This document shows, in pieces, positions 22,766 through 51,410 of a stretch of 64,000 nucleotides of DNA. Below the pieces are notes generated by a model, which ran no database searches, was not told the origin of the DNA, and worked only from the letters and a program-made list of their open reading frames with translations. Position numbers and translations under genes: made by a program. The number at the start of each line of letters is the position of its first letter. The stretch's first letter is position 1. Origin of the DNA: Aquilaria yunnanensis (Eukaryota; Streptophyta; Magnoliopsida; Malvales; Thymelaeaceae); assembly GCA_039654915.1 (NCBI GenBank), contig CM077596.1:1-64000 (forward strand), written 5' to 3'.

Positions 22766-23482
22766 CGAATTCGAAACTGGGCAGAATTGGGAAAGAATGG
22801 AGTTAACGAAATTTGTGCTGCCTTCTGGAATAAAAGATTCAAGCAGAAAATTTTAACAAAAACGAGGTACTGAGACCACAAGATGGGCCAAGATTGTTAC
22901 AAATACAATTCTGTAGTTCAATGGTCACGGTGCAATTTTTTGCAGTTTGAGGACTACATTGTTCGACAGAGAAGAAGCGAGTGAATTCTTTTAGGTAAGA
23001 GCAAGCAATGGCCGTCGATTGATCAACAGAGATCGTCTCATCGGACGGTGGCGGGATGGGATTAAACTTACTCGAATGACGGAAGGCGGGCCCGGCGCCA
23101 CGTGTGAGTCTCCTCAACGTCGTTTACAGACGGCGACGAAGCTTCGCCCTTTCCATCCCCATACGCGATTTCCTGCCGAGTGCGCTTGACAAAAATACTG
23201 AAGCCAACTCGTTCATCGCTCCCAGATCTCAATACCTCTCTCCACTCCACAAATTCGAAGGTTTGATGCGATTCTTCTTCTGCTTTATTGTTAATTTTTT
23301 GAGTATTTATTTTCTTTCGTTACCCAGAAACTGAAATAATTATACGATAGGTTCTTGTCAATTTCTTTGAAATCGTGCATTTTTCGGGGGGCAATTGATC
23401 GTGTGAGTTTGGTTTTTTCAATCTAATCGGGTTTTTGGTTTTTGGTTTCTGTGAAGCAGAAGATCGGAGCGGAGAACCAACC

Positions 23483-28465: not shown

Positions 28466-29942
28466 TGTTGGGAAAAATTCCCCAAAAACTTATCATATGT
28501 AGTGAGATAATAAATACAAGATAAATATATATGAATTTAATATGATTTGGCTCTTAATTAGCCTACATCAACGAATAAGAAAAATTCACTCGAATAAAAT
28601 ATAGAAATATACTCAAACAAAATATAGAGATTATAGTAGAGGTATGTTCTTAGTGCTCATGCTAGCCCATGAATCTCCTACATACCATTGATAATCTCAA
28701 TATCTTACCATCACAAAATTGTAAGATATAAGAAATCATAAAAGGCTCTTATCTTAGCCCTTTCTGGCCTCCAGATTTCTCTTTCTATCTGAAACCCTCA
28801 TATCTTACCTCTTCACTATATTGGTTTTTCTGTCATACCTAAAACTCTAACACAATAAGTCTTTTTTATAGGTCACACACAAACCCAAATCACAACAAAA
28901 TAGGAAAACTAAACCCTAAACAAATAAGAAAACTAAAACCAAATTCTAAACAAAATCAAAATCCTTAACATTCTTGAATTTGAGCCAACATACCCAACAA
29001 TCTTCACCTTGGCTCAATTTTTTTATCATGAACATGAACATTACGAACACACGACCACGATCACAAATATGAACACCACAAACATCGCTAAAACATGAAT
29101 AAAGCAATGAATGCATACGACTACGAATAACAATAAACAAAAACAACCATGAACAGAATATCACGAACAGCAACATCATGAGCATCAATACATACAAACA
29201 AAATCTTCAATATTCAAACTTGTATTGAGCCATCAATACCACACAGCAATCATTATCAAATATCCCTAGGACAATTCTCCAGAGTTCTACCAAACAATCC
29301 AAATGCTCTATCATGCCAAGCATAGAACCATATGCTCTACCATGCTAGGAACGCACCACAAGCTCCATCATGCCAAGAATACACCACACGGTCCGCCATG
29401 CTAGAACCAAACCATAAGCTCTGATACCACTTGTTGGGAAAAATTTCCTAATCACCTATCATACACAGCAAAATAATAAACATGAGACAAACATACATGA
29501 ATTTAATGTGGTTTGGCTCTTATTTAGCCTACATCCATGGATAAGAGAAATCCACTCTAACAAAATATAGAGATTATAGCAGATATATGCCCTTAGTGCT
29601 CATGTTGGCCCATGAATCTTTTACACACCATTGATAATCTCAATGTCTTGCCCTCACACAATTATATGATATGAGAAATCGCAAAAGGCTTCTCGTCCTA
29701 ACCCTCTCAGGCCTCCAGACCTTTCCTCCCTCTTGAAACCCTCATATCTTGCTTTTTCACCACATTGACTTTTCTCTCATACTAAAAAATCTAACATAAT
29801 AAACTTTTTTTGTAGACAACACACAAACCCAAACCACAACAAAATAAGAAAATCAAATCCTAAATAAATAGAAAAACTAAAACCAAATCCTAATTAAAAT
29901 CAAAATTTTTAGCATTCTTGAATTTGAGCAAACATACCAACA
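28466..29942 (-). mobile_element. TRIM-type mini LTR retrotransposon, 1.5 kb
   Basis: Two diverged direct repeats, 28466-28999 (about 534 bp) and 29432-29942 (about 511 bp), both begin TGTTGGGAAAAA and end CCAACA. Inside the right-hand one, GCTCTGATACCA at 29418-29429 equals the 3' end of initiator tRNA-Met on this strand, so the PBS (TGGTATCAGAGC) reads on the - strand. The purine-rich tract AAGGTGAAGAT just inside the left repeat is the polypurine tract. The ~430-bp interior has no gag or pol. Flanks share only part of a duplication (gggtg/tagtg), and the LTRs differ at many sites, so it is an old copy. Confidence 0.85.
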
Positions 29943-29956
29943 TAGTGAATATATGT

Positions 29957-32480
29957 TGTAGCAACGTGTCGGGCCGTTTTCGGGAGTCGCCACCAATCAG
30001 TTTTCTTAGGTCGATTGGTCACCTTAAAATTGGTCTGCGAGAGTTCGGGGATCGGGAGTACGGTTACGCTAAAACAATATTGTTATAGCGCCCAAAATTG
30101 GCACCTTAGTTGATTTTAATTTTGTTTTACTTTGCTTTTAAATAATTTTTAGTTAACTTAGAAATTTTAACTGAATTAGTCGAAATGTGGATTTTTAAGT
30201 TAATTTGTATAGAATTTTATACTTCCGAACCATGGACTCTGCCGAGTCATTTGGACACGGAAGATTTGGATTCCGAACCATGGACTCTGCCGAGTCATTT
30301 GGACACGGAATTTGACGAAATTTTAATCAATTAATCCATATCGTAAATATGGATTTTTATGTTTTTATTTAATTTATTTATTTTAAAAGTTTGATATTTT
30401 CCAAACTGTAAATCCTGCTGGATCATCCGGATATGGAATTTAATATCCAAGCCATGGATTCTAACCGAATCATTTGGACATGGATATGATCCGTCTTAGG
30501 ATTCGTTATTTAATTTTATTTTATTTTTAATAATTTTTAGTTAATATCCAAGTCATGGATTCTAACCGAATCATTTGGACATGGAGTTTAATTTTTATAT
30601 TTTCATACCATAGATCCTATCGGACCACCCGGATATGGAACAAATAATCCATCTTAGGACGGATTTCTAATAATTTGATACACATTTAATGCATTACAAT
30701 AATTAAAATTAAACTATAAAGATACATATCAAATCAAAAATTTTATGTTGTCTTCTATGTCTATTTAATGATCAAATTTAATGAAAGGGAAAACCAACAA
30801 TAACAAAGTAAACAAAGAAAAGTATAAACAATAAAAGGAGGTTAGTAGCTCATATGGAAGAAAATAAGAAGATGGAGGATTAAATAAAGATTTTACCAAA
30901 AAAAAAAAATTAATCATTTCCCTGCCAAAATGCTCAAAAATTTAGAAAATAAACAAAACATGAACAGTTATTTCACAGTAGCACGAATAGCATGAAAAAT
31001 CCAAGGATTCGATTATTAGAAAGAAAATACTAGTGATGATTTAGTTCATAGATTTTCTTTATCGAAAGCATCCATATTCAGAAAAGTAAATCTATCTTTT
31101 TGTTTATTATTTTATACTGTTTAACAGCACAGCAACCAAACCAAACAGAGATCATCAGTAAAAACATAATATAGAACAGTACTCAAAAAGCAAGCATGAA
31201 ATCGAAGTTCCTCTCCATCACTACTCATCCAAACAAGAATCACAACCAAAACACGAAATAGGATTAAAAATAAAAAATAAAAAATAAAAAAATCAATCGG
31301 ATATGTTAGTGACTTAAATGATCAAAATAAAGAAAATTAAAGACTAAATAAGGATTTTACCTAAAATATAAAAAAAGGTCTTTGACTTTGGTCAACAATT
31401 AAAAAAAAACGCGTTTGACGTTTTTAACTTCTCCTTTTTCCTTCCAGCGTCAGCACGGCGATGGCGCTGCTGCGAGGGGATGGCGAGGCAATGGATTCAA
31501 AGGGGGCTAGGTGCGACGAGGTGCGGTAAAGGGAGCGGCGATGCAGCTGGAGGCAACGGCGCAGTGGAGGAAGCTGGAAGATGGCAGTGAATTTTGGGGG
31601 AAATCCTGAGGCGTCGACGCTCCGGGAGGAGAGGGAAGGAGAGGGAGGAGAGTTAGGCGAGCGAAGTCGCCGGGAGAGAGAGAGAGAGGAATGAGGCGAG
31701 GGAGTTTGTGTTTCTGTGAGAGGCCGAGAGAAAACGCGTGAGAGCGGGGGGGTTCGTGTCGGAGAGAAGACGAGAGATGCAGAGAAGAGCTGAGATGAAA
31801 GAGAGAGAGAGGGATGGTTTCGGCGAGAGCTAAGAGAGTGAGAGAGAGAGAGAGAGAAGCAGGAGAGAGAGGGGTCCTATTTTTTTAGAGATCCAGGCCA
31901 GAGAGAGAAAAACTCAAACTGTCCTCCCGAGAGAGGAGAGTTAGAGATTTTTAAGAGCCCTCGGAGAGAGATGATCTCAGAGCCGAGAAGATAAGATCAG
32001 AAAAATCTAGAGAGAGCCAGATAGATTGGACAGAGAAGGAGCTGGAATCGAACTCTCTAGAGATCAGATCGGGTCCCTGAGATAAGGGAGAGAGTTCGTG
32101 ATTTCTCCAGTAGGGGGGAGCCAAAGTCAGGGGCAGGTAAAGTAGGTAGATTTTTTTTGTTTTGTTCTGGGGGAGGCCGAGCTACAAGGAAAACATGTAT
32201 CTAGGGGGAGAATTTTTTTAGTTTTAGTTTTAATCAATTTAAAAAAATAATTAATTAATTAATTAATAGTAAATTTTTTTAAAATTTTTTTAATTACTTT
32301 TTTTAATTTTGATTTTTATACACAAATATAGATATATATTATTTTAAAGCTAATCCTATAAAATAAAATGCCCCCCCATATCCTAAAAAAAATTTTTATT
32401 AATTTTTTAATTATTTTTGGTAATAATAATAATAATTAAAAAAAAAAAATTTACGGGTCGGACGAAATTGGGTGTCAACA
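29957..32480 (-). repeat. Left LTR (3' LTR in element sense)
   Basis: 2524 bp. From the left it contains six stem-loop modules (30228-30640), an AT-rich part, a GC-rich block (31440-31640), and a GA-rich block (31660-32100) that reads as CT-rich in element sense, as in plant promoters and leaders. By eye it differs from the right LTR at only about 15-20 substitutions, mostly C/T and G/A, plus a few homopolymer or AT-tract indels, so the insertion is young. Confidence 0.92.
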
Positions 32481-32496
32481 GCTGCCCCCCTTTGCA
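32481..32496 (-). other. Polypurine tract
   Basis: Immediately inside the left LTR the element-sense strand reads TGCAAAGGGGGGCAGC, a purine run abutting the LTR as required for plus-strand DNA priming. Confidence 0.85.
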
Positions 32497-32579
32497 TGCT
32501 TCATGGGACATGATGTATGCAAAGTCGTTACCAAATTTCGTCCAGCTTAGCTAAGCATTGAGAATCTTCTCGCCGCCTA

Positions 32580-34345
32580 AATTATGAGGTTATGGAATCC
32601 TCCTTAGAACCTCGACGATAGGAACTCTCCTATCGTTGAATGAAAATCGATTGATTGAAATTGAGGCTAAGGGCTCTACTTTAGAACCTCGGCGATAGGA
32701 ACTCTCCTATCGTTGATAATTTGAGGTTAAGGAACTCTCCTTAGAACCTCAACGATAGGAAAGTTCCTATCGTTGTAAGATGGACTGATTGATTGTTTGT
32801 TTGTTTGATTTGTTTGAGGTTTAAGGAAAGGTCCTTAGAACCTCTAACGATAGGAAAGCTCCTATCGTTGTAAGATGGACTGATTGATTGTTTGTTTGTT
32901 TGAGGTTTAAGGAAAGGTCCTTAGAACCTCTAACGATAGGAAAGCTTCTATCGTTGTAAGATGGACTGATTGATGTCGAGGCAAAGGTTCCATCCTTAAA
33001 ACCCCGGATTGATTAATTGATGTCGAGGCAAAGGTTCCATCCTTAAAACCCCGGATTGATTAATTGATGTCGAGGCAAAGGTTCCATCCTTAAAACCTCG
33101 ACGATTGATTGAGTTCGAGGCAAAGGTTCCATCCTTAAAACCTTGGATTGATAATTGATTGTTTTCGAGAAAAAGGTTCCATCCTTAAAACCTCGATGAT
33201 GAAAATTGATTGTTTTTTAGGCAAAGGTTTCATCCTTAAAACCCCGATGATGAAAATTGATTGTTTTCGAGGCAAAGGTTCCATCCTTAAAACCCTGATG
33301 ATGAAAATTGATTGTTTTCAAGGCAAAGGTTCCATCCTTAAAACCTCGGATTGATAATTGATCTTGAGGCAAAGGTTCCATCCTTAAAACCCCGGATTAA
33401 TTGATTGATCTCGAGGCAAAGGTTCCATCCTTAAAACCCCGGATTGATTAATTGATGTCGAGGCAAAGGTTCCATCCTTAAAACCTCGGATTGATAATTG
33501 ATTGTTTTCGAGGCAAAGGTTCCATCCTTAAAACCTCGGATTGATAATTGATCTCGAGGCAAAGGTTCCATCCTTAAAACCCCGGATTGATTGATTGATC
33601 TCGAGGCAAAGGTTCCATCCTTAAAACCCCGGATTGATTGATTGATCTCGAGGCAAAGGTTCCATCCTTAAAACCTCGATGATGAAAATTGGTTGTTTTC
33701 GAGACAAAGGTTTCATCCTTAAAACCTCGGATTGATAATTGATCTCGAGGCAAAGGTTCCATCCTTAAAACCTCGAATTGATTGATTGATGTCGAGACAA
33801 AGGTTCCATCCTTAAAACCTCGGATTGATTGATTGATGTCGAGGTAAAGGTTCCATCCTTAAAACCTCGAATTGATTGATTGATCTCGAGGCAAAGGTTC
33901 CATCCTTAAAACCTCGGATTGATTGATTGATTTCGAGGCAAAGGTTCCATCCTTAAAACCTCGGATTGATTGATTGATGTCGAGGTAAAGGTTCCATCCT
34001 TAAAACCTCGAATTGATTGATTGATCTCGAGGCAAAGGTTCCATCCTTAAAACCTCGGATTGATTGATTGATTTCGAGGCAAAGGTTCCATCCTTAAAAC
34101 CCCGATGATGAAAATTGATTATTTTCGAGGCAAAGGTTCCATCCTTAAAACCCCGATGATGAAAATTGATTGTTTTCGATGCAAAGGTTCCATCCTTAAA
34201 ACCCCGATGATGAAAATTGATTATTTTCGAGGCAAAGGTTCCATCCTTAAACCCCGATGATGAAAATTGATTGTTTTCGAGGCAAAGGTTCCATCCTTAA
34301 AACCCCGATGATGAAAATTGATTTTGAGGCTAAGGAGCTTTCCTT
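32580..34345 (-). repeat. Hairpin-forming tandem array before the 3' LTR
   Basis: About 28 units of 44-51 bp (from about 32975 to 34345) share gaggcaaaggttccatcctt followed by AAAACC(T/C)CG and an ATTGATTGATT-type spacer. Unit ends pair (CGAGG with CCTCG; AAGG with CCTT). A proximal block (32580-32975) has five longer-spaced units containing ACGATAGGA...TCCTATCGT palindromes. Tandem arrays between the last gene and the 3' LTR are known in Tat/Ogre elements and can seed satellite DNA. Frames inside the array merely reflect its periodicity. Confidence 0.9.
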
Positions 34346-34873
34346 AGGACCTCGAGCGAAATTTATATGAAAGCAATTGAAATTGGAATAATTTTCTTCG
34401 AAAGTGTGAATTTTCATAATAGGCGAGCGCAAAGAATTAGGCTTCGATAAAACGAGTGAATCTTGATGATGACAATAACACTGACAAATTATGTAAAGGG
34501 AACGGATGTTTGGAATCAATATTCAAGGTTCATCTAATATTTTCTTCAGTAAATATAGATTCCCTTGTGAGATATGTCATCCGAATAAGGTTAAAGCTTA
34601 ACTACCCCAAAATGTTATGCCTAGTAGACCTAATAGGATGCGTCTCAAGAGTAACAAAAATTACTCTTTACTCAGCCATTCCAACCTAAAGGCATTGTCC
34701 TATGGTTTTAATATCAGCCTGGACGAAACTATATTATAAAAAAAAAAAGAAATTCCCTGAAAGGAAAAACTGAAACGCGAAAGAAAATGCTGATAATAAA
34801 ACTAAAGGACAAGAAAAACGGATCAGATCGCTTCTTTCTTCCACAATACTTCAACAGGGTGAGTAGAGGACCA
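34346..34873. other. Element interior between array and LOG-like ORF
   Basis: Probably 3' untranslated sequence of the cargo transcript; no gene recognised. Confidence 0.45.
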
Positions 34874-35503
34874 TTATGGGAGTGAACTGGTCGGGAAAGA
34901 CTGTCGTGTCCAGTCTATTTGAATCATTGCTGGATCTGGTTCAGGAACAAAAGCTTGTATTTTATCTAGCAATTCTTCAGCAGTTGTTGCGGATATTATG
35001 ATTCGCCGTGCCACTCTTGATATGAAATTCTTCTGCATAGCATAATCCATAAAAGCTATCAGACCTGTAAAGAAATTGTTAACATTTAAAAGCCCAATGG
35101 GTTTCTTATGCAAATTAAGTTGGGCCATGGAAGCAATTTGAAAGACTTCTCCCAATGTGCCAAAACCACCTGGTAAAGCGATAAAAGCATCAGCATTTAA
35201 AAGCATTTGTAACACACGCTCTTGCAAATTTTTAACCACTAATTCTTCTCCAATCGTGCCCCCAGAAACAAATTTCAAAGGTCCAGGGATGATGCCCAAA
35301 ACTTGACTTCCTCCTAAAGATGCTGCTGATGCTACACCTCCCATTAATCCGACACTACCTCCTCCATAAACTAAATGTATTTTTCGCTCAGCTAATACTC
35401 TACCCAAATGGTTGGCTGCCTTTAAATACTCTTCATCTTTTCCAGGAAAAGCCCCAGAAAATACACAAATACTTCGGGATTTACGAGTTGGGGTTTTCTC
35501 CAT
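34874..35503 (-). CDS. LONELY GUY-like cytokinin riboside 5'-monophosphate phosphoribohydrolase (retroelement-borne, intronless)
   Basis: LOG enzymes release active cytokinin bases from their nucleotide monophosphates in cytosol and nucleus. From the Met at 35503 the protein is about 209 aa (an in-frame Met 29 codons upstream at 35590 exists but lies outside the family). Family marks: CVFSGAFPGKDEEY (usually CVFCGSS.G), LVYGGGSVGLMGGVA, GIIPGPL, a conserved Arg in LQERVLQM (where LOGs have an Arg-Lys pair, so Lys is replaced), the signature LPGGFGTLGEVF with its Glu, and KPIGLLNVNNFF. The frame has no stops or introns, whereas plant LOG genes have several introns, indicating capture through RNA. 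It is sense-oriented in the element, downstream of the zinc-finger ORFs. Activity is untested; the Arg-Val change may weaken it. Confidence 0.9.
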   Translation of the reverse strand: MEKTPTRKSRSICVFSGAFPGKDEEYLKAANHLGRVLAERKIHLVYGGGSVGLMGGVASAASLGGSQVLGIIPGPLKFVSGGTIGEELVVKNLQERVLQMLLNADAFIALPGGFGTLGEVFQIASMAQLNLHKKPIGLLNVNNFFTGLIAFMDYAMQKNFISRVARRIIISATTAEELLDKIQAFVPEPDPAMIQIDWTRQSFPTSSLP

Positions 35504-35584
35504 TCCTATCCTTACCCTTGTGAGAAAAAAAGATATATTTATAGAGATGAAGAGATAAGGCAATAATTTTATTTTCAAGAATGG

Positions 35585-35900
35585 ATACATTATTGCCAGC
35601 TATTCACAGTAGTCACGAGTATGACTCTGGTCAGGTATGGGTACACTATCGTTAAAAGAGGAGGAAAATTTTCAAAATAGCTGCTAGCATGTACAGTAGT
35701 CACTACTGTAGCTTACGTCAGGAGTAAGTACATGATTGTTGGAAGAGAAGAAAAATTTTAAAAAGTGGCAGCTATATACAGTAATCATAACTGTATCTCA
35801 TGTCAGGAGTGGGTACATTATTACCAAAAGGGGAGGAAAATTTCAAAAGCGACAGCTAGCACGTATAGTAATCGTGACTTTGATCCTCGTCTTCCACTGG
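35585..35900. repeat. ~100-bp tandem repeats between LOG-like and zinc-finger ORFs
   Basis: Three to four diverged units built from gtacattattgccaaaag-like, aggaggaaaattttcaaa, and cagctagcacgtacagtagtc-like parts. Related single copies lie after each of the other two zinc-finger ORFs (about 36585-36660 and 37400-37490), so the spacer belongs to the amplified unit. Confidence 0.7.
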
Positions 35901-35930
35901 CTTTGCGTCCAGTAATGGCTTCAATACTTT

Positions 35931-36494
35931 CTATGAATCGGTGATTTGCATCTCATCTAGCTTTCTCACAAACTGGCAAACAGGGTCGTTTAGGGTCAGA
36001 TTCCCGAGACTGTAGCGATCTCGTTCTTTTTGGGAAATTATCCATAATCCAACAACCTCAAATTGCACTATTCCACAAGAATGCGCTTCAAGAACCTCTC
36101 GAATATCTTTTAGAGATTCCTTACGCAAGCCATTCTTAATGAATCTTATTCTATCATTACGATTTCTGGTGATCACTCCTGGAGAATGACATTTATTGCC
36201 GCAAATCCACCATCCATAATTATGACAAACGCCTAGCCTCTTTGCTCTTCTTTTTTTGGCATAAGCGCTTTTACCAAAGCCGGGCATACGGGGAAAGAAC
36301 GCTTCGGGAACTTCACCAGCTGAACGAACCTTAGCTTCAATTAGCCACCGCACATTATCAGGAATGCCTTTGTGCATAAATACTCTAAATCGTTCACATC
36401 TAGCTTGATAAATATTTTTAAGAACATTTATTGGGAAGGAAGGAAAATACTTTCGTAGGGCGGAAAGAGAAGACTCCATTGATAAAGGAGGCAA
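35931..36494 (-). CDS. Viral NABP-like zinc-finger protein, copy 3 (element-borne)
   Basis: 187 codons open from 36494; Met6 (36479) aligns with the starts of the sister copies. Layout: a hydrophobic/basic N-terminal half with HKGIPDNVRWLIEAK, a basic patch (YAKKRRAKRLG), a cysteine cluster, then a region ending FIKNGL. This order matches the cysteine-rich nucleic-acid-binding proteins of carla- and allexiviruses (Carla_C4 / viral NABP families). Cys90, Cys98 and Cys102 are present but the second Cys of the cluster is Tyr93, so zinc binding is doubtful. The alternative is an unrelated plant zinc-knuckle protein. Other carla/allexivirus genes are absent. Confidence 0.6.
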   Translation of the reverse strand: MPPLSMESSLSALRKYFPSFPINVLKNIYQARCERFRVFMHKGIPDNVRWLIEAKVRSAGEVPEAFFPRMPGFGKSAYAKKRRAKRLGVCHNYGWWICGNKCHSPGVITRNRNDRIRFIKNGLRKESLKDIREVLEAHSCGIVQFEVVGLWIISQKERDRYSLGNLTLNDPVCQFVRKLDEMQITDS

Positions 36495-36695
36495 AGAAAG
36501 AAATTAGTGATTGTAGGAAACGAAAATAACTAACACATATTTGTAGTGATGAAAGGGATAATGCGTTAATTACACTTACAGAAGCAAGTACATTATTGTC
36601 AAAAGAAAAGACAAATGACAGCTTATATGTACAGCAATCATGACTGTGGCTCTCATCTTCCACTAGTTTATGTCTAGTAACGGCTTCAATGCCTT

Positions 36696-37244
36696 CTATA
36701 AGTCGGGGATTTGCTTCCCATCCAGTTTTCTCACAAACTGGCAAACAAGGTCATTAAAAGTTAGATTTCCAAGACTGTAACGATCCTGTTCTTTACGGAA
36801 AGTCCACCATAAATCCATAATTTCCCATTGCACTATTTCACAAGAATGTGTTTCAAAAGTTAATAGGATATCATCCAAAGATTCCTTACGCAGGCCATTC
36901 TTGATGAATTTTCTTTTCTCTTCATGATTTCTGGAGATGTATCCTAAAGAGCGACATTTAGTATTACAATTACATCGTCCACATTTATGACAGACACCTA
37001 GCCTTTTTGCTCTTCACTTTTTGGCATAAGCGCTTTTACCAAAGCCGGGCATACGGGGAAAGAACGCTTCTGGAACTTCACCAGCTGAACGAACCTTAGC
37101 TTCAATTAGCCACCGCACATTGTCAGGAATGCCTTTGTGCATAAAGACTCTAATCCTTTCACATCTAGCTTGGTAAATCATTTTAAGAACATTTATTGGG
37201 ATGGAAGGAAAGTATTTTCGCATGGTGGAAAGAGTAGAATCCAT
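36696..37244 (-). pseudogene. Viral NABP-like zinc-finger gene, copy 2, with nonsense codon
   Basis: Same length class and start as copy 1. An in-frame TGA at 37016-37014, in the basic patch, falls where copy 1 has an Arg codon (CGA), so it looks like a single C-to-T change. The frame beyond it still encodes the four-cysteine cluster and the C-terminal region, and I noticed no other stop up to the normal end at 36696. As it stands only a 76-residue N-terminal product would be made. Confidence 0.65.
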
Positions 37245-37532
37245 TGATAAAAGAAGAATTTGAGAGAAGAGATGAAGAAATCAATTATTGTAGGAAACTG
37301 AAATAACTGATTATGAGAGTCAGAGAGTATTGCATCCGCTACTTAACCGGAAAGAAGAACACGCATTTATAGCGATGAAAGGATAACGTGTTAATTACGC
37401 TTACAGGAACAAGTACATTATTGTCCAAAGGTAATGCAAATTTTTCAAATATGACAAATCGTATGTACAATAATTGTGACTGTGGCTCACATCTTCCACT
37501 GGCTTTACGTCCAGTAACGGCATTAACGGCTT

Positions 37533-38081
37533 CTATGAGTCGAGGATTTGCTTGCCATCCAGTTTTCTTACAAGCTGGCAAACAGGGTCGTTTACAGTCA
37601 GATTCTCGGGACTGTATCGTTCTCGTTCTTCATGAAAAATGCTCCATAAACCAAGAAGTTCACGTTGCACAGATCCACAAGAATGCGTTTCAAGAGTCAA
37701 TTGGATATCATCCAACGAGTCCTTACTCAGGCCATTCTTAATGAATCGTATTTTATCTTCTCGATTATCAGAGATCATCCCTAAAGAACGACATTTAGTA
37801 TTACAAGTCCACCGTCCACATTTATGGCAGACTTGTAACCTTTTCACTCTTCGCTTTTTGGCATAAGAGCTTTTGCCTATACCAGGCATGCGAGACATAA
37901 ATGCCTCTAGGATTTCACCTGCCAGACGAACCTTGGCTTCGATTAACCACCGCACATCTTCAGGGATTCCTTTGTGCATCAGAACTCTTAATTGTTCACA
38001 GCGAACTTGGTAGATCTTTTTGAGAATGTTCATTGGGAGAGAAGGAAAATATTTTCGTAAGATAGAAAGAGTAGGATCCAT
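37533..38081 (-). CDS. Viral NABP-like zinc-finger protein, copy 1 (best preserved)
   Basis: 182 aa with all four cysteines: Cys85, Cys88, Cys93 and Cys97 (C-x2-C-x4-C-x3-C), preceded by SSYAKKRRVKRL and followed by an FIKNGL block. Carlavirus and allexivirus NABPs share the GIP..V, S.YA.(K/R)RR, cysteine cluster, Gly-Ile/Met-Ser and FI..G order; those proteins bind nucleic acid and several are reported silencing suppressors or pathogenicity factors. The spacing between the Cys pairs is shorter here than I recall for the viruses. It is first of the three copies in element sense. Capture of a viral gene is my inference; ancestry needs a profile search. Confidence 0.62.
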   Translation of the reverse strand: MDPTLSILRKYFPSLPMNILKKIYQVRCEQLRVLMHKGIPEDVRWLIEAKVRLAGEILEAFMSRMPGIGKSSYAKKRRVKRLQVCHKCGRWTCNTKCRSLGMISDNREDKIRFIKNGLSKDSLDDIQLTLETHSCGSVQRELLGLWSIFHEERERYSPENLTVNDPVCQLVRKLDGKQILDS

Positions 38082-38099
38082 TTTCTAGAGGGAAGTATA

Positions 38100-41000
38100 A
38101 GAAAGAAGAGAGGAAAGAATCAGTTATTATGGGCAACTGAGAGAACCGACTTGAGAGTCACGGAATACCGTATCCGCCGCTTAACCGGAAAAGTAGATCC
38201 TACTTTATTTTGATGTGAATGATATTTCTTATCTTTGATATTCCATCTAGCTGACGTTGATCGAGTCCTTGATTATTGAATCTTTTGTCCGCTTTTGACA
38301 AATTTTCAACGACAATATTTCTTGATGTCTGCCTTATCTTTGACCACAGCTATCTCTTATTTTGGATGCTGCTAAGCTGGCATCAATCCTGTCCTTCCAG
38401 GTGTAGCCTCGATTATTGAATCAATTGCCAGGCTTTTGACAATATTGTCTACTTTATATTTTTTGATATCTGCCTTATCCTTGGCTATAGCTATCTCTTA
38501 TCTCGGATACTACTAACTGACGTCAATCCTGTCCTTCCAGGTGTAGTCTCGATTATTGAATCGATTGCTAGGCTTTTGACATATTGTCTATCTTATCCTT
38601 GAATTCCTGATGTGGGTTGGTCCCGCATATTAGCTGTGTATCCAGTGATAGATTGGTAAGAGCTGATGACATTGAGATCTCAGCTTATACTGCTGTAACT
38701 GTGCTGTGAATGTGATTCCCGTTTGGTCCTTGTTATGTAAAGGCTATGTATGCATGATATGAAATGCATGAATGCAGAGCATGTGTAACTAATGGCTTTT
38801 TTTTGTATGGATCTAGTTCTTTATGTCTTTGTTTTACTGGATCCTCTTTGTGATGGCCTTCTTGGACTATAATTGAATCTCTTTATGCTTTCCAGCTTTT
38901 GTTCACTGCCTCAAAAGCCCAACTCTTTTCAAAGTCCGCTTTCTTTGACTTGTTCTTGAATTTTGGTCTCAATTTTTTTAATGTTCGCTCGCCTCATAAT
39001 TTATATCTCTTTCGGGTACTCATCCATTGTCATGGATTTGATACCATCAAAGGCTTTACTTTCAATGTCTGCTTTGCCCCTTTTCTTGTGACCGTGCCGA
39101 CACTTACTTATTCCCATGTTATAATCTGAATGATTGCTCTTCCTTGAACTCATGTTTTGATCCATAAGACTTGCCCCCTTGTCTATTGAACTTCTTTGTT
39201 GGCAGTACTCCTCTTATGCTTCGTAGAAACTACTTTGCCCCCCTGAATATAGTGTTTATGTGGATAAAAGGTATCATCTCATCTTTTATTTAACAGAAGG
39301 TTGAGCATTTCTAGACCTTTATGATGGTCCTTGATCATGAATTTCTCTTACAAGAACCACATCTTCTTAAAGAAAGTCTCAAGCTATCTCCTCACTTTTA
39401 AATCTACACACATTAATGAATAATGGTTTGGCCTTAAAGAAAAACTTTCATCAATTTGCAAAGCTTGACAAAGTAATTTACGGTCTTTGTTTTTAATTAA
39501 AATATCCTGCCATTCTTCCCTTTCCAACTCGAAGACATAAACTGTGCAAGACAATAAGGTATAAACATGATTCACAAGGATAGCCTTTTAGCTGAATGAG
39601 GATGATATCGAGAGGTAACTGTTAGGTGTGAGGAAAGTTAAGTTTGAATGTTTTTTTTTTGTGGCAGTCTTTTAGCTGAATGAGAATAATATTAAAAGGT
39701 AAATATTAGGTCTGAGTAAAGTTAAGTTTGAGTGGTATGAAAGAAGAGTCTTTTAACACTGCTCGTGAGCAGTATTAAATAAGGTAGAAACATAATTCAC
39801 AATGATAGTCTTTTAGCTGAATGAGGATATTAAGTCTGAAGGAAGTTAAGTTTTAATGGTGTGAAAGAAGGGTCTTTTAATACTACTCGTGAGCAAATTT
39901 GATTATGGTGAAAAACTCAATAGTGATGACCTCAACTTGCCACTCTTTCCAGAAAGTTACACCTTATCTATTGTGCCCCAACTATTGTAATCTTTATGCA
40001 TGCTTGGTTTGAGGGTTGCTTTCGTGTTCTAAACCGCCTTTGCAGGTTTTCAGTCTAGAATCCATAGCTCACTTTTTTTGTTTTCTTTCTTTTGCTCTAG
40101 TTTGGGCCCTTTTTCCTTTCTTTTTTGTTTTGTTTTTTTGTTTTGTTTCTTTTTTTTTTTTTGTGAGCTATGGTGATGACATACTTGATAACTCTCTTGA
40201 AGTGAGATGACTCAAGTGGCCTTGCTTGCTCGTGCTTGTTCTCAGTCCTTTTTGGTTTTGAATTTTCCCTTGTTGTCTTTTGATGGAAGGGATGAATTTC
40301 TCTTTTCGGAGTTTGTGTTGCAAAGAACTAAGATCATAGCCCTCTTGAAGTGAAATGATTCAAGTGGCCTTAGTTGCTTGTGTTTGCTCCCAGTCTCTTT
40401 TTTTTGTTTTGGATTTTCCCTTTAATGGCTTTTGATGGAAGGGATGAACTTCTTTCCTTTGTTGGAATTTGTGTTGCGGAAAACTGAGAATCTTTTTTTT
40501 TTTGTATTGAGCATTTGTGAGAATTGGGAGGCCACTGAAGTCATTTAATATGAGAGCTATCTTGTTTGGAAGCTAACCCCAGACTTCTTGCAAGGATGTT
40601 GATAACCACTATGAATTCTTTTTTGAGAGTTGGGGTGCCACATATGAAATCCTTCTTACTAGATTTGACAGCACTTTCAAGATCGCCACTATTAAATCTC
40701 CCTTAACTTTTTATTTTCACCCACGAGTAGTATCGTTTTCAAAGTAAAGTGTGATAGCAATAATGGATAGTATAATGGAAAGGAGTGAGAGATTGATATA
40801 AAAACGGAATTTTTGGTAAGAAGTGGTGGAATGTGTAGGTGTAATAATTGAATTTTTTGGTAAAAATTGGTAGAATGTGTAGAAGTAATAATGGGATTAA
40901 AAAGTGGTAGAATGCACACGCAACATCTTTTTGTTAGAGAACAAAAAGAATTACCGGTTGTCGAAAAGTAAAGTGTGATGGCAATAATGGATAGTATAAT

Positions 41001-41390
41001 GGCAAAGAGTGTAAAAATGAAAAGTAGTAGAATGCACGCATTACATCTTTTTGTTGTACCAGAAAAAGAATAGCAGGTGTCCATTTAACAAAGACTACAC
41101 CCTAGATTCTGAACTAAATCTAGGAGATTTTTACTATTAAATTACTTTTGCAAGCTTTCAAAGATACAAGTTTATTCAAAGGATTCCCTGTCATTCAAAA
41201 GTGTGTGCGGACTATTAGGTCAGATCTGACTTGGAGCCCTTCCAAAATTAATGTAATTCCGGATCAAAATCTTCACTTTTAATTACCAATCACATCGGGC
41301 CTAGCAACTTGAACTCGGCCAATTGTTGGACCTTGAGTTTCAGCACCACAGACTTTTCAGTTACATTTGGGATTTGGGTCACACCAACTT
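38100..41390. other. Element interior without recognisable genes
   Basis: About 3.3 kb between the gag/pol relic and the zinc-finger ORFs. It contains imperfect direct repeats: ~140-bp units with cctgtccttccaggtgtag at about 38369 and 38510 plus a weaker one near 38240; gtcttttagctgaatgagga-type units at about 39580-39880; and a ~170-bp duplication near 40150-40500 (cttttgatggaagggatgaa). The open frames (39384-39575, 40692-41084, both -) have no family features. Confidence 0.6.
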
Positions 41391-41401
41391 GGAAGAGAAG
41401 G

Positions 41402-41773
41402 TCACTTGGTCTTTACTACTATTGATATAGATGATAGCAGAATGTCTTTTTCAGCAAAGACTGTGATTAACTTTCCTTCAAAAATGAATTTCATTTTTTG
41501 GTGTAATGGGGAGGGAATTGCTCCGACCATATTTTCTATCTTGGACTCTATATCTATGAGACGTCCTTCAGTTTGTTCTGCCATTAGTCTTGTTTGGAGC
41601 CGAGTTGGATATTGGTGTTGAGATCCAATTTTACTTTTTTTTTTTAAAGTGAGATTCATTTTATTAGATTTTACATGCATATGATTGATGCAATGGATGC
41701 ATGCAATACATAATGAGATTATGTTTTTATCAAAATTTATATGCACGTGATTGATGTAATGGAATGCATGCAA
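41402..41773 (-). pseudogene. Deletion-fused gag/pol relic of the Tat-like element
   Basis: The frame first shows a gag-start-like stretch (YPTRLQTRLMAEQTEGRL), then a stretch (GAIPSPLHQKMKFIFEGKLI, TVFAEKDIL) typical of the segment between protease and reverse transcriptase in Tat/Ogre polyproteins (commonly GAVPSSLHQK.KF..). These parts are normally kilobases apart, so an internal deletion removed most of gag and the protease. RT, RNase H and integrase domains are not found downstream. Family assignment is from remembered motifs. Confidence 0.6.
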
Positions 41774-42197
41774 TGAGATTATTTTTATCAGATTTTATAT
41801 GCATGTGATTGATGTAATGGATGTATGCAATGAGTGAGCTTGATTATCAACTATTGTGAAACTTCAAGACTTCTAGTTATTATTAAAAAGACCAAAAAGT
41901 TAGCATAATTTGATGCGTGGTTTTGATGCATGAAGAATAATTGCATAGAACGGAAGTATAACAAAAGAAAAATAAGGTTATTAACAAGTTAAATAGTAAT
42001 TAACAACTCATGAAATATTATGGATAAACAAGTTAAAACCATATGAAGAAAAGTGTAGAGTAACAACATAGCATAGCAAGGATATGCTTATGGCGTTGGT
42101 AAAATGGTAGAAATTCTATGGTCAGTTCTATGGTTAAGTGGGGAGTTCTATATGCATAAGGTGGTTTATAAAAAAGGCAAGGGATAGTTCCCGAATC

Positions 42198-42220
42198 CCG
42201 TCACTAAGTCATAGTGACGG
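42198..42220. other. Perfect 9-bp hairpin in the element leader
   Basis: CCGTCACTA and TAGTGACGG flank a 5-nt loop, about 340 nt inside the PBS in element sense. Its position in the untranslated leader is compatible with a dimerisation or packaging signal, but no function is shown. Confidence 0.55.
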
Positions 42221-42558
42221 CCCGATTCCTTACCCTCTAGGGTTAATGTAAGGAATGGATTAATTCGAGTCGTAGCTTTTCGTGGGCCCATGCAGAGACT
42301 AACCGTCTCAGAAGGTAATACACTACTTTGCTACTTTGAAACCGGTGAAGGCTTGGAGACCGTGGCCTCACAAGGACAACAACACCAATTCCGCTTAGAA
42401 AGAACGTGTTCGATTCGAGGAAGCTCGGGTATAGAGCTTCATGTCGTGAATGCATAATGCATGTTTTCGTTAAGTAAATATAGAATATAAAAATCCACAT
42501 AAAAAGAAGCAAAGCAAAACAAAACAAATCAAGTTTTAGGCTCGACTCACTAACCGCT

Positions 42559-42576
42559 TCCCCAGTGGAGTCGCCA
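42559..42576 (-). other. Primer-binding site (tRNA-Arg)
   Basis: The + strand reads TCCCCAGTGGAGTCGCCA, the expected 3' end of plant tRNA-Arg(ACG) including CCA; in element sense this is an 18-nt PBS starting TGG, 3 nt from the LTR end. tRNA-Arg priming is characteristic of Tat/Ogre elements. Confidence 0.88.
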
Positions 42577-42579
42577 AGC

Positions 42580-45089
42580 TGTAGCAACGTGTCGGGCCGT
42601 TTTTGGGAGTCGCCACCAATCAGTTTTCTTAGGTCGATTGGTCACCTTAAAATTGGTCTGCGAGAGTTCGGGGATCGGGAGTACGGTTACGCTAAAACAA
42701 TATTGTTATAGCGCCCAAAATTGGCACCTTAGTTGATTTTAATTTTGTTTTACTTTGCTTTTAAATAATTTTCAGTTAACTTAGAAATTTTAACTGAATT
42801 AGTCGAAATGTGGATTTTTAAGTTAATTTGTATAGAATTTTATACTTCCGAACCATGGACTCTGCCGAGTCATTTGGACACGGAAGATTTGGATTCCGAA
42901 CCATGGACTCTGCCGAGTCATTTGGACACGGAATTTGACGAAATTTTAATCAATTAATCCATATCGTAAATATGGATTTTTATGTTTTTATTTAATTTAT
43001 TTATTTTAAAAGTTTGATATTTTCCAAACTGTAAATCCTGCTGGATCATCCGGATATGGAATTTAATATCCAAGCCATGGATTCTAACCGAATCATTTGG
43101 ACATGGATATGATCCGTCTTAGGATTCGTTATTTAATTTTATTTTATTTTTAATAATTTTTAGTTAATATCCAAGCCATGGATTCTAACCGAATCATTTG
43201 GACATGGAGTTTAATTTTTATATTTTCATACCATAGATCCTATCGGACCACCCGGATATGGAACAAATAATCCATCTTAGGACGGATTTCTAATAATTTG
43301 ATACACATTTAATGCATTACAATAATTAAAATTAAACTATAAAGATACATATCAAATCAAAAATTTTATGTTGTCTTCTATGTCTATTTAATGATCAAAT
43401 TTAATGAAAGGGAAAACCAACAATAACAAAGTAAACAAAGAAAAGTATAAACAATAAAAGGAGGTTAGTAGCTCATATGGAAGAAAATAAGAAGATGGAG
43501 GATTAAATAAAGATTTTACCAAAAAAAAAAAAAATTAATTCATTTCCCTGCCAAAATGCTCAAAAATTCAGAAAATAAACAAAACATGAACAGTTATTTC
43601 ACAGTAGCACGAATAGCATGAAAAATCCAAGGATTCGATTATTAGAAAGAAAATACTAGTGATGATTTAGTTCATAGATTTTCTTTATCGAAAGCATCCA
43701 TATTCAGAAAAGTAAATCTATCTTTTTGTTTATTATTTTATATTGTTTAACAGCACAGCAACCAAACCAAACAGAGATCATCAGTAAAAACATAATATAG
43801 AATAGTACTCAAAAAGCAAGCATGAAATCGAAGTTCCTCTCCATCACTACTCATCCAAACAAGAATCACAACCAAAACACGAAATAGGATTAAAAAAAAA
43901 AATCAATCGGATATGTTAGTGACTTAAATGATCAAAATAAAGAAAATTAAAGACTAAATAAGGATTTTACCTAAAATATAAAAAAAGGTCTTTGACTTTG
44001 GTCAACAATTAAAAAAAAACGCGTTTGACGTTTTTAACTTCTCCTTTTTCCTTCCAGCGTCAGCACGGCGATGGCGCTGCTGCGAGGGGATGGCGAGGCA
44101 ATGGATTCAAAGGGGGCTAGGCGCGACGAGGTGCGGTAAAGGGAGCGGCAATGCAGCTGGAGGCAACGGCGCAGTGGAGGAAGCTGGAAGATGGCAGTGA
44201 ATTTTGGGGGAAATCCTGAGGCGTCGACGCTCCGGGAGGAGAGGGAAGGAGAGGGAGGAGAGTTAGGCGAGCGAAGTCGCCGGGAGAGAGAGAGAGAGGA
44301 ATGAGGCGAGGGAGTTTGTGTTTCTGTGAGAGGCCGAGAGAAAACGCGTGAGAGTGGGGGGGTTCGTGTCGGAGAGAAGACGAGAGATGCAGAGAAGAGC
44401 TGAGATGAAAGAGAGAGAGAGGGATGGTTCCGGCGAGAGCTAAGAGAGTGAGAGAGAGAGAGAGAGAAGCAGGAGAGAGAGGGGTCCTATTTTTTTAGAG
44501 ATCCAGGCCAGAGAGAGGAAAACTCAAACTGTCCTCCCGAGAGAGGAGAGTTAGAGATTTTTAAGAGCCCTCGGAGAGATATGATCTCAGAGCCGAGAAG
44601 ATAAGATCAGAAAAATCTAGAGAGAGCCAGATAGATTGGACAGAGAAGGAGCTGGAATCGAACTCTCTAGAGATCAGATCGGGTCCCTGAGATAAGGGAG
44701 AGAGTTCGTGATTTCTCCAGTAGGGGGGAGCCAAAGTCAGGGGCAGGTAAGGTAGGTAGATTTTTTTTGTTTTGTTCTGGAGGAGGCCGAGCTACAAGGA
44801 AAACACGTATCTAGGGGGAGAATTTTTTTAGTTTTAGTTTTTATCAATTTAAAAAAAAATAATTAATTAATTAATAGTAAATTTTTTTAAAATTTTTTTA
44901 ATTAATTTTTTTAATTTTGATTTTTATACACAAATATAGATATATATTATTTTAAAGCTAATCCTATAAAATAAAATGCCCCCCCATATCCTAAAAAAAT
45001 TTTTTATTAATTTTTTAATTATTTTTGGTAATAATAATAATAATTAAAAAAAAAAAAATTTACGGGTCGGACGAAATTGGGTGTCAACA
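42580..45089 (-). repeat. Right LTR (5' LTR in element sense)
   Basis: 2510 bp, near-identical to the left LTR. Six stem-loop modules lie at about 42847-43262, the GC-rich block at about 44050-44240 and the GA-rich block at about 44280-44700. In element sense this LTR would drive transcription leftwards through the zinc-finger and LOG-like ORFs. Confidence 0.92.
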
Positions 45090-45094
45090 TATGT

Positions 45095-49180: not shown

Positions 49181-51410
49181 TCAGCTCATTGTAGTTGGTG
49201 ATGTCTCCAAATAGTCAAAATCATCTGTTATCCCTATCTGCATGTTAGATTTAGAAGCTAAGTTAAGAATTGACGAGATAAGAGCCAATGACTCAGAATG
49301 TCTGACCTTAAAAATGCTAAATTATGTTCAAGATGACAAGATAGCCATTTGTTTACAAAGGCATCCCCAAAACTGTAAGAGCGTGGGGGCATGCTGCATG
49401 ACCAATGTTTACAACTCAGAATGATGCAAGTCATCATTGAAAAGTGATTTTTGGGGTTGTCATCCAGAGGTGATTTTGGAGTCACAGGTCTTACTACAAA
49501 TTCTGTGATGTGGTCTCTTAAGAAAAAACCAGCAAGAAACGGTGAAAATCATACAAAAGGCTGTGCCTAATGCTCCGGGTCATTTCAAAACACCATTCAT
49601 TGAAGTGACATCAGCATAATCTGTAACTAAAATGCACAAAGTTTATGTGAAAACATGACTGGTGTACCTCCTTGTACATGTGCTGAAGCTGCTCTCTTGC
49701 TTCGGGAAAGTTGTTTGAGCACCATTGCTTTAGTGTAAAGATGTTGTCTGTTGAGTCAAATCGCAATAATCATGCATATAGAGTATCATGAAGTATATTC
49801 AGAAGGACAGGAACTGCAGTTTATACATGTTCAAACATAAAGAAGGAAGGAGAAGAGGGGTTGGGGTCTGTATTCATGCAAAGCAGAAAGGATTTACCTG
49901 TCCATCTGTTAGCTGCAGCATGGGCAACTTCAATTGCTTGCTCTGCCAAAAAAAAACAAAAACCTGTGATTCAAAGTAGTAATTCATATATGCGAAAGCT
50001 TCAACACATCATAAGCTCAAAGAGTATCTGGCGAAAATAGAATAAACAATCTGTATACGCATCAAGATAAGCACAACTAACTCATTGCTTCAAATGCTGC
50101 AGGATCATTGTCTGAATACTGCCCCATTTCCTCCTGAAGAAGCAGGGAAACAAAACATGGCTGTCAGCTTAAGCAAGTCCTTCAGATTGCTTCAAACATG
50201 AATAGAAAGGATCTAAACGCACCTTGAGTTCATTATATTTCAACTCAATGGCTTTAAGCTCAGCTAATGCCTTCTCTCGCTCATCCTAGTGAAGGCTCAA
50301 AAGCGAAGTCTAAAATCAAACAAAAGACTCCAAACATGCATCCCTGCATACCAACTAAAACTCTAACCAAAGCATAAAATTTATCTTCAAACACTTACGG
50401 ATTCTTCCCGCCCTTTTTTAAGTGCATCACTCTGCTGAACTAGTTCTTCATGACGCTTTTTACTGCTTTGTAGGTCTGATTCCAGCTTACGATACACATT
50501 TCTCAACTGTTCAAGAATTAGAGACTGAGGTGAAACACTGAGTACATTCCAAGCATTACATTTATAAGATTCACCCTAGGAACTTGCCTGGTTTCCAGCG
50601 CAGCTGGGAAGGCTCCAAAAGTATACCTGGAGATTGCAACTGAGCAATTAATTATGCCTATAAACCAGTTGAGGCAAGCGCCCACCACTCTCAGACAATA
50701 CTTAAGGACAGATTGAAACAAATTTAACACAAGAAAGAGATATGTCCTCACAGAAGTTCCTATCTTGTCCTTTGAAACAAGGTCATCATCCACCAAACTC
50801 TGGATAACATCTTTCACTGACTGGGTAATCACACCCTTTTTTGGGCCTAGTTTCTCTAGCTCCTTCAGCTGGGAAGCAACAAAAAGGAGGGATTTAGAAA
50901 CAACAGTGAACACAGAATGAAGAAACCGGATGACTGGACAGCCACCGAGCAAGAACCTATCCGGTTAAAATTAATCAATCAAGATCTAATTCTCTGATTT
51001 GACCTGAGAGATAATCTAGTGCTGATGACATAACTATCCAGCTCCCTAGTTCAGAATGAAACATCCACGGTTTGAAGAAGCTGTATCATGAAAAATCGAT
51101 CAGAATTCAGATGTACCCACCAGGAAAAAGTCTTGGGACTCGTAAAATATCTGGAGCATCTTCTCGCGCTTCTCGTCCAAAGAAAGACCCCGTTTCTTTG
51201 ACTGCATCGCAGAAATTTTAGTTGATAGGAAAATCAAACACATCCTCAACGGAAAAAATAAGAGTCAATTTCAGTAGTGTCGAATACGATGTTCCTCTTT
51301 CCAACATTTTTCTACCGATCCAAACACTATTTTAACGCACTAATCTACAAAATTACGCAGAAAAGGAATCAAAACTCAAATTCCAGAGAGATACAAAACG
51401 AACTCACCAT
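49181..51410 (-). CDS. MND1: Meiotic nuclear division protein 1 (MND1)
   Basis: Partner of HOP2; the heterodimer helps DMC1/RAD51 in strand invasion during meiotic recombination in the nucleus. Ten exons: 51410-51408 (ATG only), 51201-51121, 50868-50752, 50626-50588, 50506-50399, 50285-50223, 50133-50082, 49942-49898, 49747-49668, 49237-49181; 214 aa. The N-terminal winged-helix region (SKKRGLSLDEKREKMLQIFY; LGPKKGVITQSVKDVIQSLV), the YFWSLPSCAGNQ stretch, a central coiled coil (KLESDLQSSKKRHEELVQQ..) and the C-terminal NRWTDNIFTLKQWCSNNFPE region match the family throughout. Intron 4 has a GC donor (CAG|GCAAGT, 50587-50586). The protein is slightly shorter at its C-terminus than I recall for Arabidopsis (about 230 aa). 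Confidence 0.95.

Follow-up and report, generated by a model that had tools for sequence, protein, structure and literature searches.

Plant LTR retrotransposons often carry extra open reading frames (ORFs) of unclear use, and LOGL4-like sequences were reportedly described in two Athila-like elements by Steinbauerova et al. in 2011. Ty3/gypsy elements with a YgdH/LOG domain have been reported from Citrus and Populus trichocarpa; each Citrus species has five or more consensus elements carrying a LOG-family domain (PMC9289625, which cites the 2011 study). The same screen describes orchid Ty3/gypsy elements related to Ogre, whose m6A demethylase domain could target RNA of the host or of the element. 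Elements of the Ogre/Tat clade combine extra ORFs and extensive non-coding regions with long LTRs and a 5-bp duplication; they also have an additional (archaeal-type) RNase H, a Tat-clade criterion, and plant mobile domain, Transposase_28 and Athila ORF1 are named as their typical extra domains (PMC6317226).

The element analysed here lies in a 64-kb stretch of DNA, hereafter the window. It shares a LOG-family extra domain with the Citrus and Populus elements, and resembles the Ogre/Tat clade in the length of its LTRs, its extra ORFs, its extensive non-coding parts and its 5-bp duplication, the additional RNase H being found in a relative that bears a reverse transcriptase (RT). The family differs from typical Ogre/Tat elements in carrying three NABP genes and LOG in sense after pol, with DUF7745 before gag, and from the orchid elements in its enzyme, the demethylase being confined to one plant genus in that screen. 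The available text of the account of LOG elements (PMC9289625) mentions no NABP partner, EAR-like tail, catalytic-motif loss or selection test. An initial annotation of this DNA knew of no described element with both LOG and NABP; no published account of the NABP partner came to light, but LOG in Ty3/gypsy elements was already known.

Structure of the element

Paired LTRs, target-site duplication, primer binding site and polypurine tract are all present (Table 1). The two LTRs, each of about 2.5 kb, are 98.4% identical by BLAST and differ at 21 of 2506 aligned sites (14 transitions and 7 transversions; K2P 0.0084); in minus sense they start with TGTTGACACC and end with TTGCTACA. The window copy inserted recently. 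Its primer binding site-like sequence, TGGCGACTCCACTGGGGA, would pair with tRNA-Arg. Ogre elements use a tRNA-Arg primer (PMC9289625). No gag-pol Pfam family was detected between 38100 and 42559 in the three minus frames (E ≤ 1), and of the gag-pol coding region that autonomy calls for only short relics are left. No tRNA genes and no Rfam matches were found within the window.

Table 1. Features of the element, in window coordinates; element sense is the minus strand.
Feature	Position	Strand	Evidence
Whole LTR element, 15.1 kb	29957-45089	-	Paired LTRs, TSD, PBS and PPT
Target-site duplication TATGT, left	29952-29956	.	
3' LTR	29957-32480	-	BLAST and LTR alignment
Polypurine tract AAAGGGGGGCAGC, directly 5' of the 3' LTR in element sense	32481-32493	-	
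3' arrays of tandem repeats with periods of 60, 86 and 47 bp	32661-34304	-	
LOG-like ORF, 209 aa, PGGxGTxxE present, no EAR-like tail	34874-35503	-	Pfam and homologue alignment
NABP3, open, 182 aa, without one zinc-finger Cys	35931-36479	-	PF05515 and PF01623, both below cut-off
NABP2, 182-codon frame, one premature internal stop	36696-37244	-	
NABP1, 182 aa, open, C-x2-C-x4-C-x3-C present	37533-38081	-	PF05515 and PF01623
Stretches collinear with the integrase-NABP1 interval of the gag-pol-bearing relative (L020)	38200-39010	-	
Gag-protease ORF relic, 33 residues, 79% to L019	41432-41530	-	
Gag start relic, 26 residues, 81% to L019	41528-41605	-	
5' leader, common to L019, 90.5% nucleotide identity	42111-42579	-	
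Primer binding site-like TGGCGACTCCACTGGGGA, just inside the 5' LTR	42559-42576	-	
5' LTR	42580-45089	-	BLAST and LTR alignment
Target-site duplication TATGT, right	45090-45094	.	

Homologues of the LOG protein begin at the ATG at 35503, which fixes the gene at 34874-35503. The initial annotation had named the near-identical LTRs, the TATGT duplication, the PBS-like site, the polypurine tract, the loss of gag-pol and a LOG-like ORF in element sense, and each of these holds, the LOG frame being uninterrupted; of the three NABP-like ORFs that it listed, NABP1 and NABP3 are open and NABP2 is interrupted by one stop.

Other copies in the host genome

Forty full-length LTR hits were retrieved from the 842-Mb host genome, and all 12 further LTR pairs among them were analysed. 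At least three NABPs were found in 12/12 of these pairs and LOG in 11/12, the pair L009/L010 having no LOG. The one gag-pol-bearing copy read, L019/L020, carries PF24924, PF03732 (gag), G-patch, RVT_1, RT_RNaseH, RVT_3, Integrase_H2C2 and rve, and thus has the order RT - RNase H - integrase of Tat-clade Ty3/gypsy elements, pol being absent from the window copy. Its additional RNase H matches RVT_3 (E 9.6e-20 in L019), the family that marks archaeal-type RNase H (aRH). Downstream of the integrase, between pol and the 3' LTR, three NABP genes and a LOG gene of 209 aa follow in sense; the second NABP frame has a stop.

A search of the host genome with the RT gave 31718 candidates, and 86/86 scored places were 99-100% identical and free of stops. 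LOG lay at the predicted distance from RT in 15 of the 16 places retrieved, the exception being L056, and 13 of those 15 were open; NABP1 was open in 6/6 retrieved beside RT places. Nine further RT places pair with listed LOG places at 7586-7612 bp on the same strand. The NABP and LOG cargo therefore belongs to the gag-pol-bearing family as well, not just to the deleted copy, and the window copy derives by internal deletion from a gag-pol-bearing Tat/Ogre-type element. We regard its anatomy, and its assignment to an abundant Tat/Ogre-type Ty3/gypsy retrotransposon family, as very probable.

These counts bear on the claims of the initial annotation. Its Tat/Ogre-type assignment is borne out by the relative, and the further elements with the same LTRs and cargo that it proposed to search for exist. 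Its description of a non-autonomous cargo carrier is right for the window copy but too narrow for the family, given the cargo of the gag-pol-bearing relatives and the NABP-LOG units of other eudicots. A single chimaeric insertion or one-off assembly error, to which we assign a negligible probability and in whose favour we found nothing, is rejected by the NABPs of the further LTR pairs, LOG at the RT places and relatives in other species.

Selection on the cargo

Pooled pN/pS was 0.230 (0.149-0.341) for NABP1 and 0.338 (0.239-0.468) for NABP2, over 13 copies each, 0.304 (0.212-0.424) for NABP3 over 11 and 0.218 (0.144-0.320) for LOG over 12, with codon-bootstrap intervals that are optimistic because the copies are related and partly mosaic, their nearest relatives varying gene by gene. 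The count excludes genes truncated at piece borders, NABP1 of L011 (frameshifted), the third NABP of L010 (divergent, 47%) and the fourth NABP of L031. Minus the RT-bearing copy, LOG gave 0.201 (0.130-0.297; 11 copies). In shifted-frame controls the ratio was 0.53 and 3.76 for LOG; for NABP1 it was 0.99 and 0.88. Among the three NABPs of the window, pairwise omega was 0.255, 0.256 and 0.348. The cargo has been preserved by purifying selection, a conclusion in which we have high confidence; the constraint may have acted mostly in source copies. Neutral evolution of the ORFs, which the initial annotation had named as an outcome against its reading, is not what the copies show.

The genes might nevertheless be functionless passengers captured long ago, low pN/pS being a product of gene conversion and of a recent origin from a small number of source copies. 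NABP2 is interrupted in 5/13 copies, the RT-bearing one among them, and at least 150 places in the host genome encode an identical 209-aa LOG with zero stops (150/150 scored of 3665 candidates, window copy counted), which points to recent amplification. We consider the passenger reading very unlikely, because NABP1, NABP3 and LOG are open in 11/13, 10/11 and 10/12 copies, the ratios (0.20-0.34, upper bounds below 0.5) lie under the shifted-frame controls (0.53-3.76), and NABP occurs with LOG in at least three plant groups.

Likeness of the cargo to viral proteins and plant enzymes

NABP1 exceeds the curated cut-offs of PF05515 (E 4.4e-7; 30.5 bits, cut-off 23) and of PF01623 (E 1.9e-5), and NABP3 falls slightly under them for both families (20.6 bits for PF05515); the zinc-finger Cys that it lacks in the window is kept in 7/7 other tabulated NABP3 copies. 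These are the Pfam families of flexivirus cysteine-rich/NABP proteins (carlavirus, mandarivirus). Viral cysteine-rich proteins are described with NLS and zinc-finger motifs, and in the element NABP, likewise, a zinc finger comes after a basic stretch; a mandarivirus cysteine-rich protein suppresses silencing (PMC12172455), and p12 of chrysanthemum virus B is both a transcriptional activator and a silencing suppressor (PMC7588395). Unlike the flexivirus proteins, the element NABP is 182 aa long, triplicated in tandem and housed in a retrotransposon. Its predicted model is poor (pLDDT 62.9, pTM 0.29), and its fold matches in BFVD have low TM-scores and E values of 0.018 at best, none reaching 0.001; nine of the best 11 carry the name RNA silencing suppressor or nucleic acid binding protein, the other two being a cherry mottle leaf virus 15-kDa protein and one unnamed. 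No relative of NABP was found in the PDB, and scans of viral contigs with the NABP and LOG alignments confirmed none.

The window LOG matches PF03641 (E 2.3e-30; 105.9 bits, curated cut-off 27) and the plant LOG 2a33 (E 1.3e-51). It shares PGGxGTxxE with plant LOG cytokinin riboside 5'-monophosphate phosphoribohydrolases (2a33, 1ydh) and differs from them in being an uninterrupted, element-borne ORF, with LxLxL-tailed relatives elsewhere. The motif is kept in 11/12 LOGs from same-LTR pairs (the window and 10/11 others) and in 15/15 LOGs beside RT places. A tblastn search of plasmids with LOG returned bacterial relatives only, all below 60% identity.

Hormone-enzyme-like and virus-like genes kept under selection suggest that the element family may manipulate host cells. 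The cargo most likely acts on the host cell: NABP, as a homologue of flexivirus cysteine-rich proteins, would be a nuclear nucleic-acid-binding regulator, a silencing suppressor or both, and LOG would release active cytokinin in cells expressing the element. The window copy, having lost gag-pol and kept this cargo, is presumably mobilised in trans by RT-bearing relatives. We give this host-directed mechanism about an even chance.

NABP is a small, basic protein with a C-x2-C-x4-C knuckle, a pattern found in 109/120 listed relatives, and the cargo lies in sense after pol, where LTR elements have their env-like and accessory ORFs (PMC7264820). These features would suit a cargo of use in the cycle of the element itself (RNA packaging, export from the nucleus or nucleotide salvage), with NABP as a nucleocapsid-like or Rev-like accessory protein. 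Such a role is improbable: the family has gag, which leaves no obvious need for another nucleocapsid, and among named proteins NABP comes closest to viral silencing suppressors and nucleic-acid-binding proteins. We know of no role of LOG in retrotransposition.

Relatives in other plants and the EAR-like tail

NABP-LOG units are present in Citrus and Orobanche too. The NABP-LOG distance correlation was r = 0.78 (p 0.017) on six units and 0.89 on seven with a near-duplicate included, 3/10 planned units not being splittable and therefore left out. Shared-contig coincidences of NABP and LOG numbered three on contigs of at least 2 kb (0.08 expected) and four over all lengths (0.90 expected), an argument now superseded by the host-genome data. 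Pfam revealed no Athila-type gag-pol in pieces of three relatives, so placing the Orobanche or Citrus elements in Athila would be our assumption.

The sequence LxLxL occurs in the last 12 residues of 98/120 listed LOG homologues, against lower counts in controls (1/2023 windows of the same LOG proteins, 76/6000 shuffles and 2/120 NABPs), behind a linker that varies in sequence and length. An EAR-like LxLxL motif would recruit TOPLESS-type co-repressors. Full-length Citrus LOGs, with a median pairwise identity of 75%, retain PGGxGTxxE in 0/24 cases yet end in a strict LxLxL in 21/24. LOG could be a protein tether rather than a hormone enzyme, its C-terminus bearing a basic stretch and an EAR-like LxLxL in most lineages, its core free to decay and its tail secondarily lost here. 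We think this unlikely: a C-terminal LxLxL is present in 0/12 LOGs of LTR pairs in the Aquilaria genome, the window LOG included, alignments of the EAR-tailed relative P0014 to the host genome pass residue 201 in 0/150 listed places, the catalytic motif is kept in 107/120 listed homologues, and LOG is constrained here without a tail.

Cytokinin release combined with anti-silencing is accordingly a plausible reading for the Aquilaria genome, but the tail elsewhere and the loss of the motif in Citrus mean that it would not be the whole story across lineages. With the catalytic motif gone from 24/24 full-length Citrus LOGs, cytokinin release cannot be shared by every lineage, and an enzyme role for the Citrus relatives is doubtful. 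A bolder reading, to which we give somewhat less than even odds, is an old eudicot Ty3/gypsy lineage that has kept a two-protein host-manipulation cassette, a homologue of RNA-virus silencing suppressors and a LOG with removable core and EAR-like tail, the enzyme half remaining here and the tail half in Citrus; such a cassette would be to the retrotransposon what accessory genes are to viruses. The extra-ORF set described here is selected and widespread, and its predicted activities are cytokinin release, silencing suppression and co-repressor recruitment; if these hold, a retrotransposon family would reprogram host cells in the manner of viruses.

The identical LOG copies in the host genome, at least 150, also call for care in annotation, comparable sequences having been named cytokinin enzymes; records from Citrus and Populus carry that label.

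Structure and origin of the element

The LTR element at 29957-45089 is real and well supported: a TATGT duplication flanks it, its LTRs (2524 and 2510 bp) show 21 mismatches over 2506 aligned positions, and it has both a purine tract and a PBS-like sequence. The duplication, near-identical LTRs, a PBS and a PPT had already been noted in the initial annotation. The approximately 4.5 kb between the PBS and NABP1, the first gene for a flexivirus-type zinc-finger nucleic-acid-binding protein, contain no long conserved frame, and tandem arrays occupy the 3' part. LOG, the cytokinin-activating-enzyme-like gene, encodes 209 residues and matches PF03641 (E 2.3e-30); NABP1 matches PF05515 and PF01623 above the Pfam cut-off, with NABP3 slightly under it. 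Three NABP-like ORFs had been annotated; NABP1 and NABP3 are indeed open 182-aa frames, but NABP2 is interrupted by one internal stop. NABP2 and NABP3 are 87-97% identical over their first 240 nt and 70-82% beyond, a step that suggests gene conversion between the tandem NABPs.

Features of the window and of the gag-pol-bearing relative L019/L020
Feature	Location	Sense	Description
LTR element	29957-45089	minus	5' LTR, PBS, ~4.5 kb, NABP1, NABP2, NABP3, LOG, tandem arrays, 3' LTR
Leader	42111-42579		relic, collinear with L019/L020
gag start	41528-41605		relic, collinear with L019/L020
gag-protease ORF	41432-41530		relic, collinear with L019/L020
Post-integrase stretch	38200-39010		relic, collinear with L019/L020
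LTR-like fragment	7682-8183		86.6% identity to first 500 bp (plus sense) of the element's LTR
Inverted repeat	14318-14658 / 15223-15562		341 bp, 92% identity
M20-peptidase gene	17103-22852	minus	repeated exons
Direct repeat	28466-28999 / 29432-29942		~0.5 kb, 78%
MND1-like meiosis gene	50521-50964	minus	exon; Mnd1 HTH domain, E 5.3e-17
L019/L020	C4:50048166-50065490		DUF7745, gag, G-patch, RT, RNase H, RVT_3, integrase zinc and core domains
L019/L020 cargo	after integrase	same as integrase	NABP1, NABP2 (one stop), NABP3, LOG
DUF7745 ORF	L019:601-2316		572 aa, upstream of gag; PF24924, E 3.5e-53

Gag-pol has been lost from the window element, as first proposed, with only relics collinear with L019/L020 remaining; it is therefore an internal-deletion derivative of an element of that type. 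We take RVT_3 in L019/L020 to be the additional RNase H of the Tat clade. Such an additional domain marks that clade (PMC6317226). We file the window element as a Tat/Ogre-type element carrying extra ORFs.

The family in the host genome

A 501-bp query from the LTR end gave 40 full-length matches (3607 candidates) in the 842-Mb, 345-contig host genome, and every further LTR pair among them was taken (n = 12; ten spaced 12-20 kb, two wider). At least three NABPs occurred in 12/12 of these pairs and LOG in 11/12, pair L009/L010 being without it, so that the cargo is not confined to one chimaeric insertion and the family is well supported. In one of the two wider pairs there are two oppositely oriented cassettes, which presumably belong to nested elements. 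With the window LOG as query, all 150 scored places (3665 candidates), the window's own copy included, were identical over 209 aa without stops. Stops close to the C-terminus end LOG after residue 197 in L013 and L025, at residue 200 in L044 and at residue 201 in L045, L044 having another at 40; given these late stops in four LOGs, the final dozen residues may be dispensable.

Among the LTR pairs the family's RT was found only in L019/L020, longer gag parts in three others (L011, L026 and L028), and the RT in L029 is another element's (31% identity). The L019/L020 RT as query gave 86/86 scored places at 99-100% identity with no stop (31718 candidates). The predicted LOG spot was fetched for 16 of these, taken from the top of the list and including three with shorter open frames; LOG was present in 15 (13 open), and the single place without it has a short RT frame. 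NABP1 was present and open in 6/6 RT places fetched, and nine further RT places pair with listed LOG places 7586-7612 bp away on the same strand.

Selection on the cargo

By synonymous distance the nearest copies to the window NABP1 are L010, L027 and L014, and those to NABP2 are L024 and L016; the copies are related and look mosaic. The codon-bootstrap intervals are for this reason optimistic for pooled pN/pS, which was 0.230 (0.149-0.341) for NABP1, 0.338 (0.239-0.468) for NABP2, 0.304 (0.212-0.424) for NABP3 and 0.218 (0.144-0.320) for LOG. Without the RT-bearing copy the values were 0.251, 0.336, 0.301 and 0.201, respectively. In the full set, frames were open in 11/13 copies for NABP1, 8/13 for NABP2, 10/11 for NABP3 and 10/12 for LOG. 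Shifted-frame controls gave 0.53 and 3.76 for LOG and 0.99 and 0.88 for NABP1. The closest LOG cluster (seven copies) gave 0.102 (0.047-0.200), and omega among the window's three NABPs was 0.255-0.348. Neutral evolution of the ORFs, which the initial annotation had raised as a counter-case, is not borne out by pooled ratios of 0.218-0.338. Selection on the cargo is well supported, pN/pS not separating selection in source copies from selection in each copy; what the cargo does, we infer.

Relatives in other plants

Reevesia pubescens supplied 29 of the best 120 of 7931 LOG matches, others listed including Xanthoceras, Populus, Diplodiscus and Parasponia; the best 120 of 165 NABP matches include Populus, Xanthoceras, Orobanche, Gossypium and Citrus. 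When a Citrus fusion prediction served as query, NABP and LOG domains stood together in 10 of 120 proteins listed, eight from Citrus and two from Orobanche gracilis, both of the latter with four of four Pfam models passing cut-offs. In one Citrus prediction (P0274), NABP and then LOG follow an integrase core whose score falls 0.6 bits short of the cut-off (E 1.5e-7). Such fusions may be annotation artefacts; they nonetheless reveal a NABP-LOG neighbourhood and order the same as the window's.

LxLxL lay within the last 12 residues of 98 of the best 120 LOGs listed, compared with 1/2023 control windows, 76/6000 shuffles and 2/120 NABPs listed. An EAR motif of this kind serves to recruit co-repressors of the TOPLESS type. 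The tail was found in 0/12 LOGs of the host genome's family, and when an EAR-tailed LOG relative (P0014) served as query, none of the 150 places listed aligned beyond residue 201. The catalytic motif PGGxGTxxE is kept in 107 of the same 120 LOGs and in none of 24 full-length Citrus LOGs chosen from the proteins listed for the fused query, 21 of which have a strict LxLxL end. The tail and the enzyme motif have thus each been lost in a lineage retaining the other.

The NABP AlphaFold model is poor (pLDDT 62.9); its top matches in BFVD were nucleic-acid-binding proteins and silencing suppressors of flexiviruses, at E 0.018 and worse. YgdH/LOG domains have been described in consensus Ty3/gypsy elements from Populus trichocarpa and from two species of Citrus (PMC9289625), reportedly in agreement with Steinbauerova et al. 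2011. Viral NABP homologues activate transcription or suppress silencing (PMC7588395; PMC12172455). In literature lying mostly outside subscription journals, we found no paper linking NABP or an EAR tail to LOG-bearing Ty3/gypsy elements.

Neighbouring features

The LTR-like sequence at the left of the window, for which no second LTR was seen within the window, is read as a solo or truncated relative. The inverted repeat is perhaps a foldback transposon. The M20-peptidase exons, with PF01546 in 3/4 stretches tested, are apparent tandem duplicates and resemble plant IAA-amino acid hydrolases. The MND1-like exon lies to the right of the element, and the direct repeat directly to its left.
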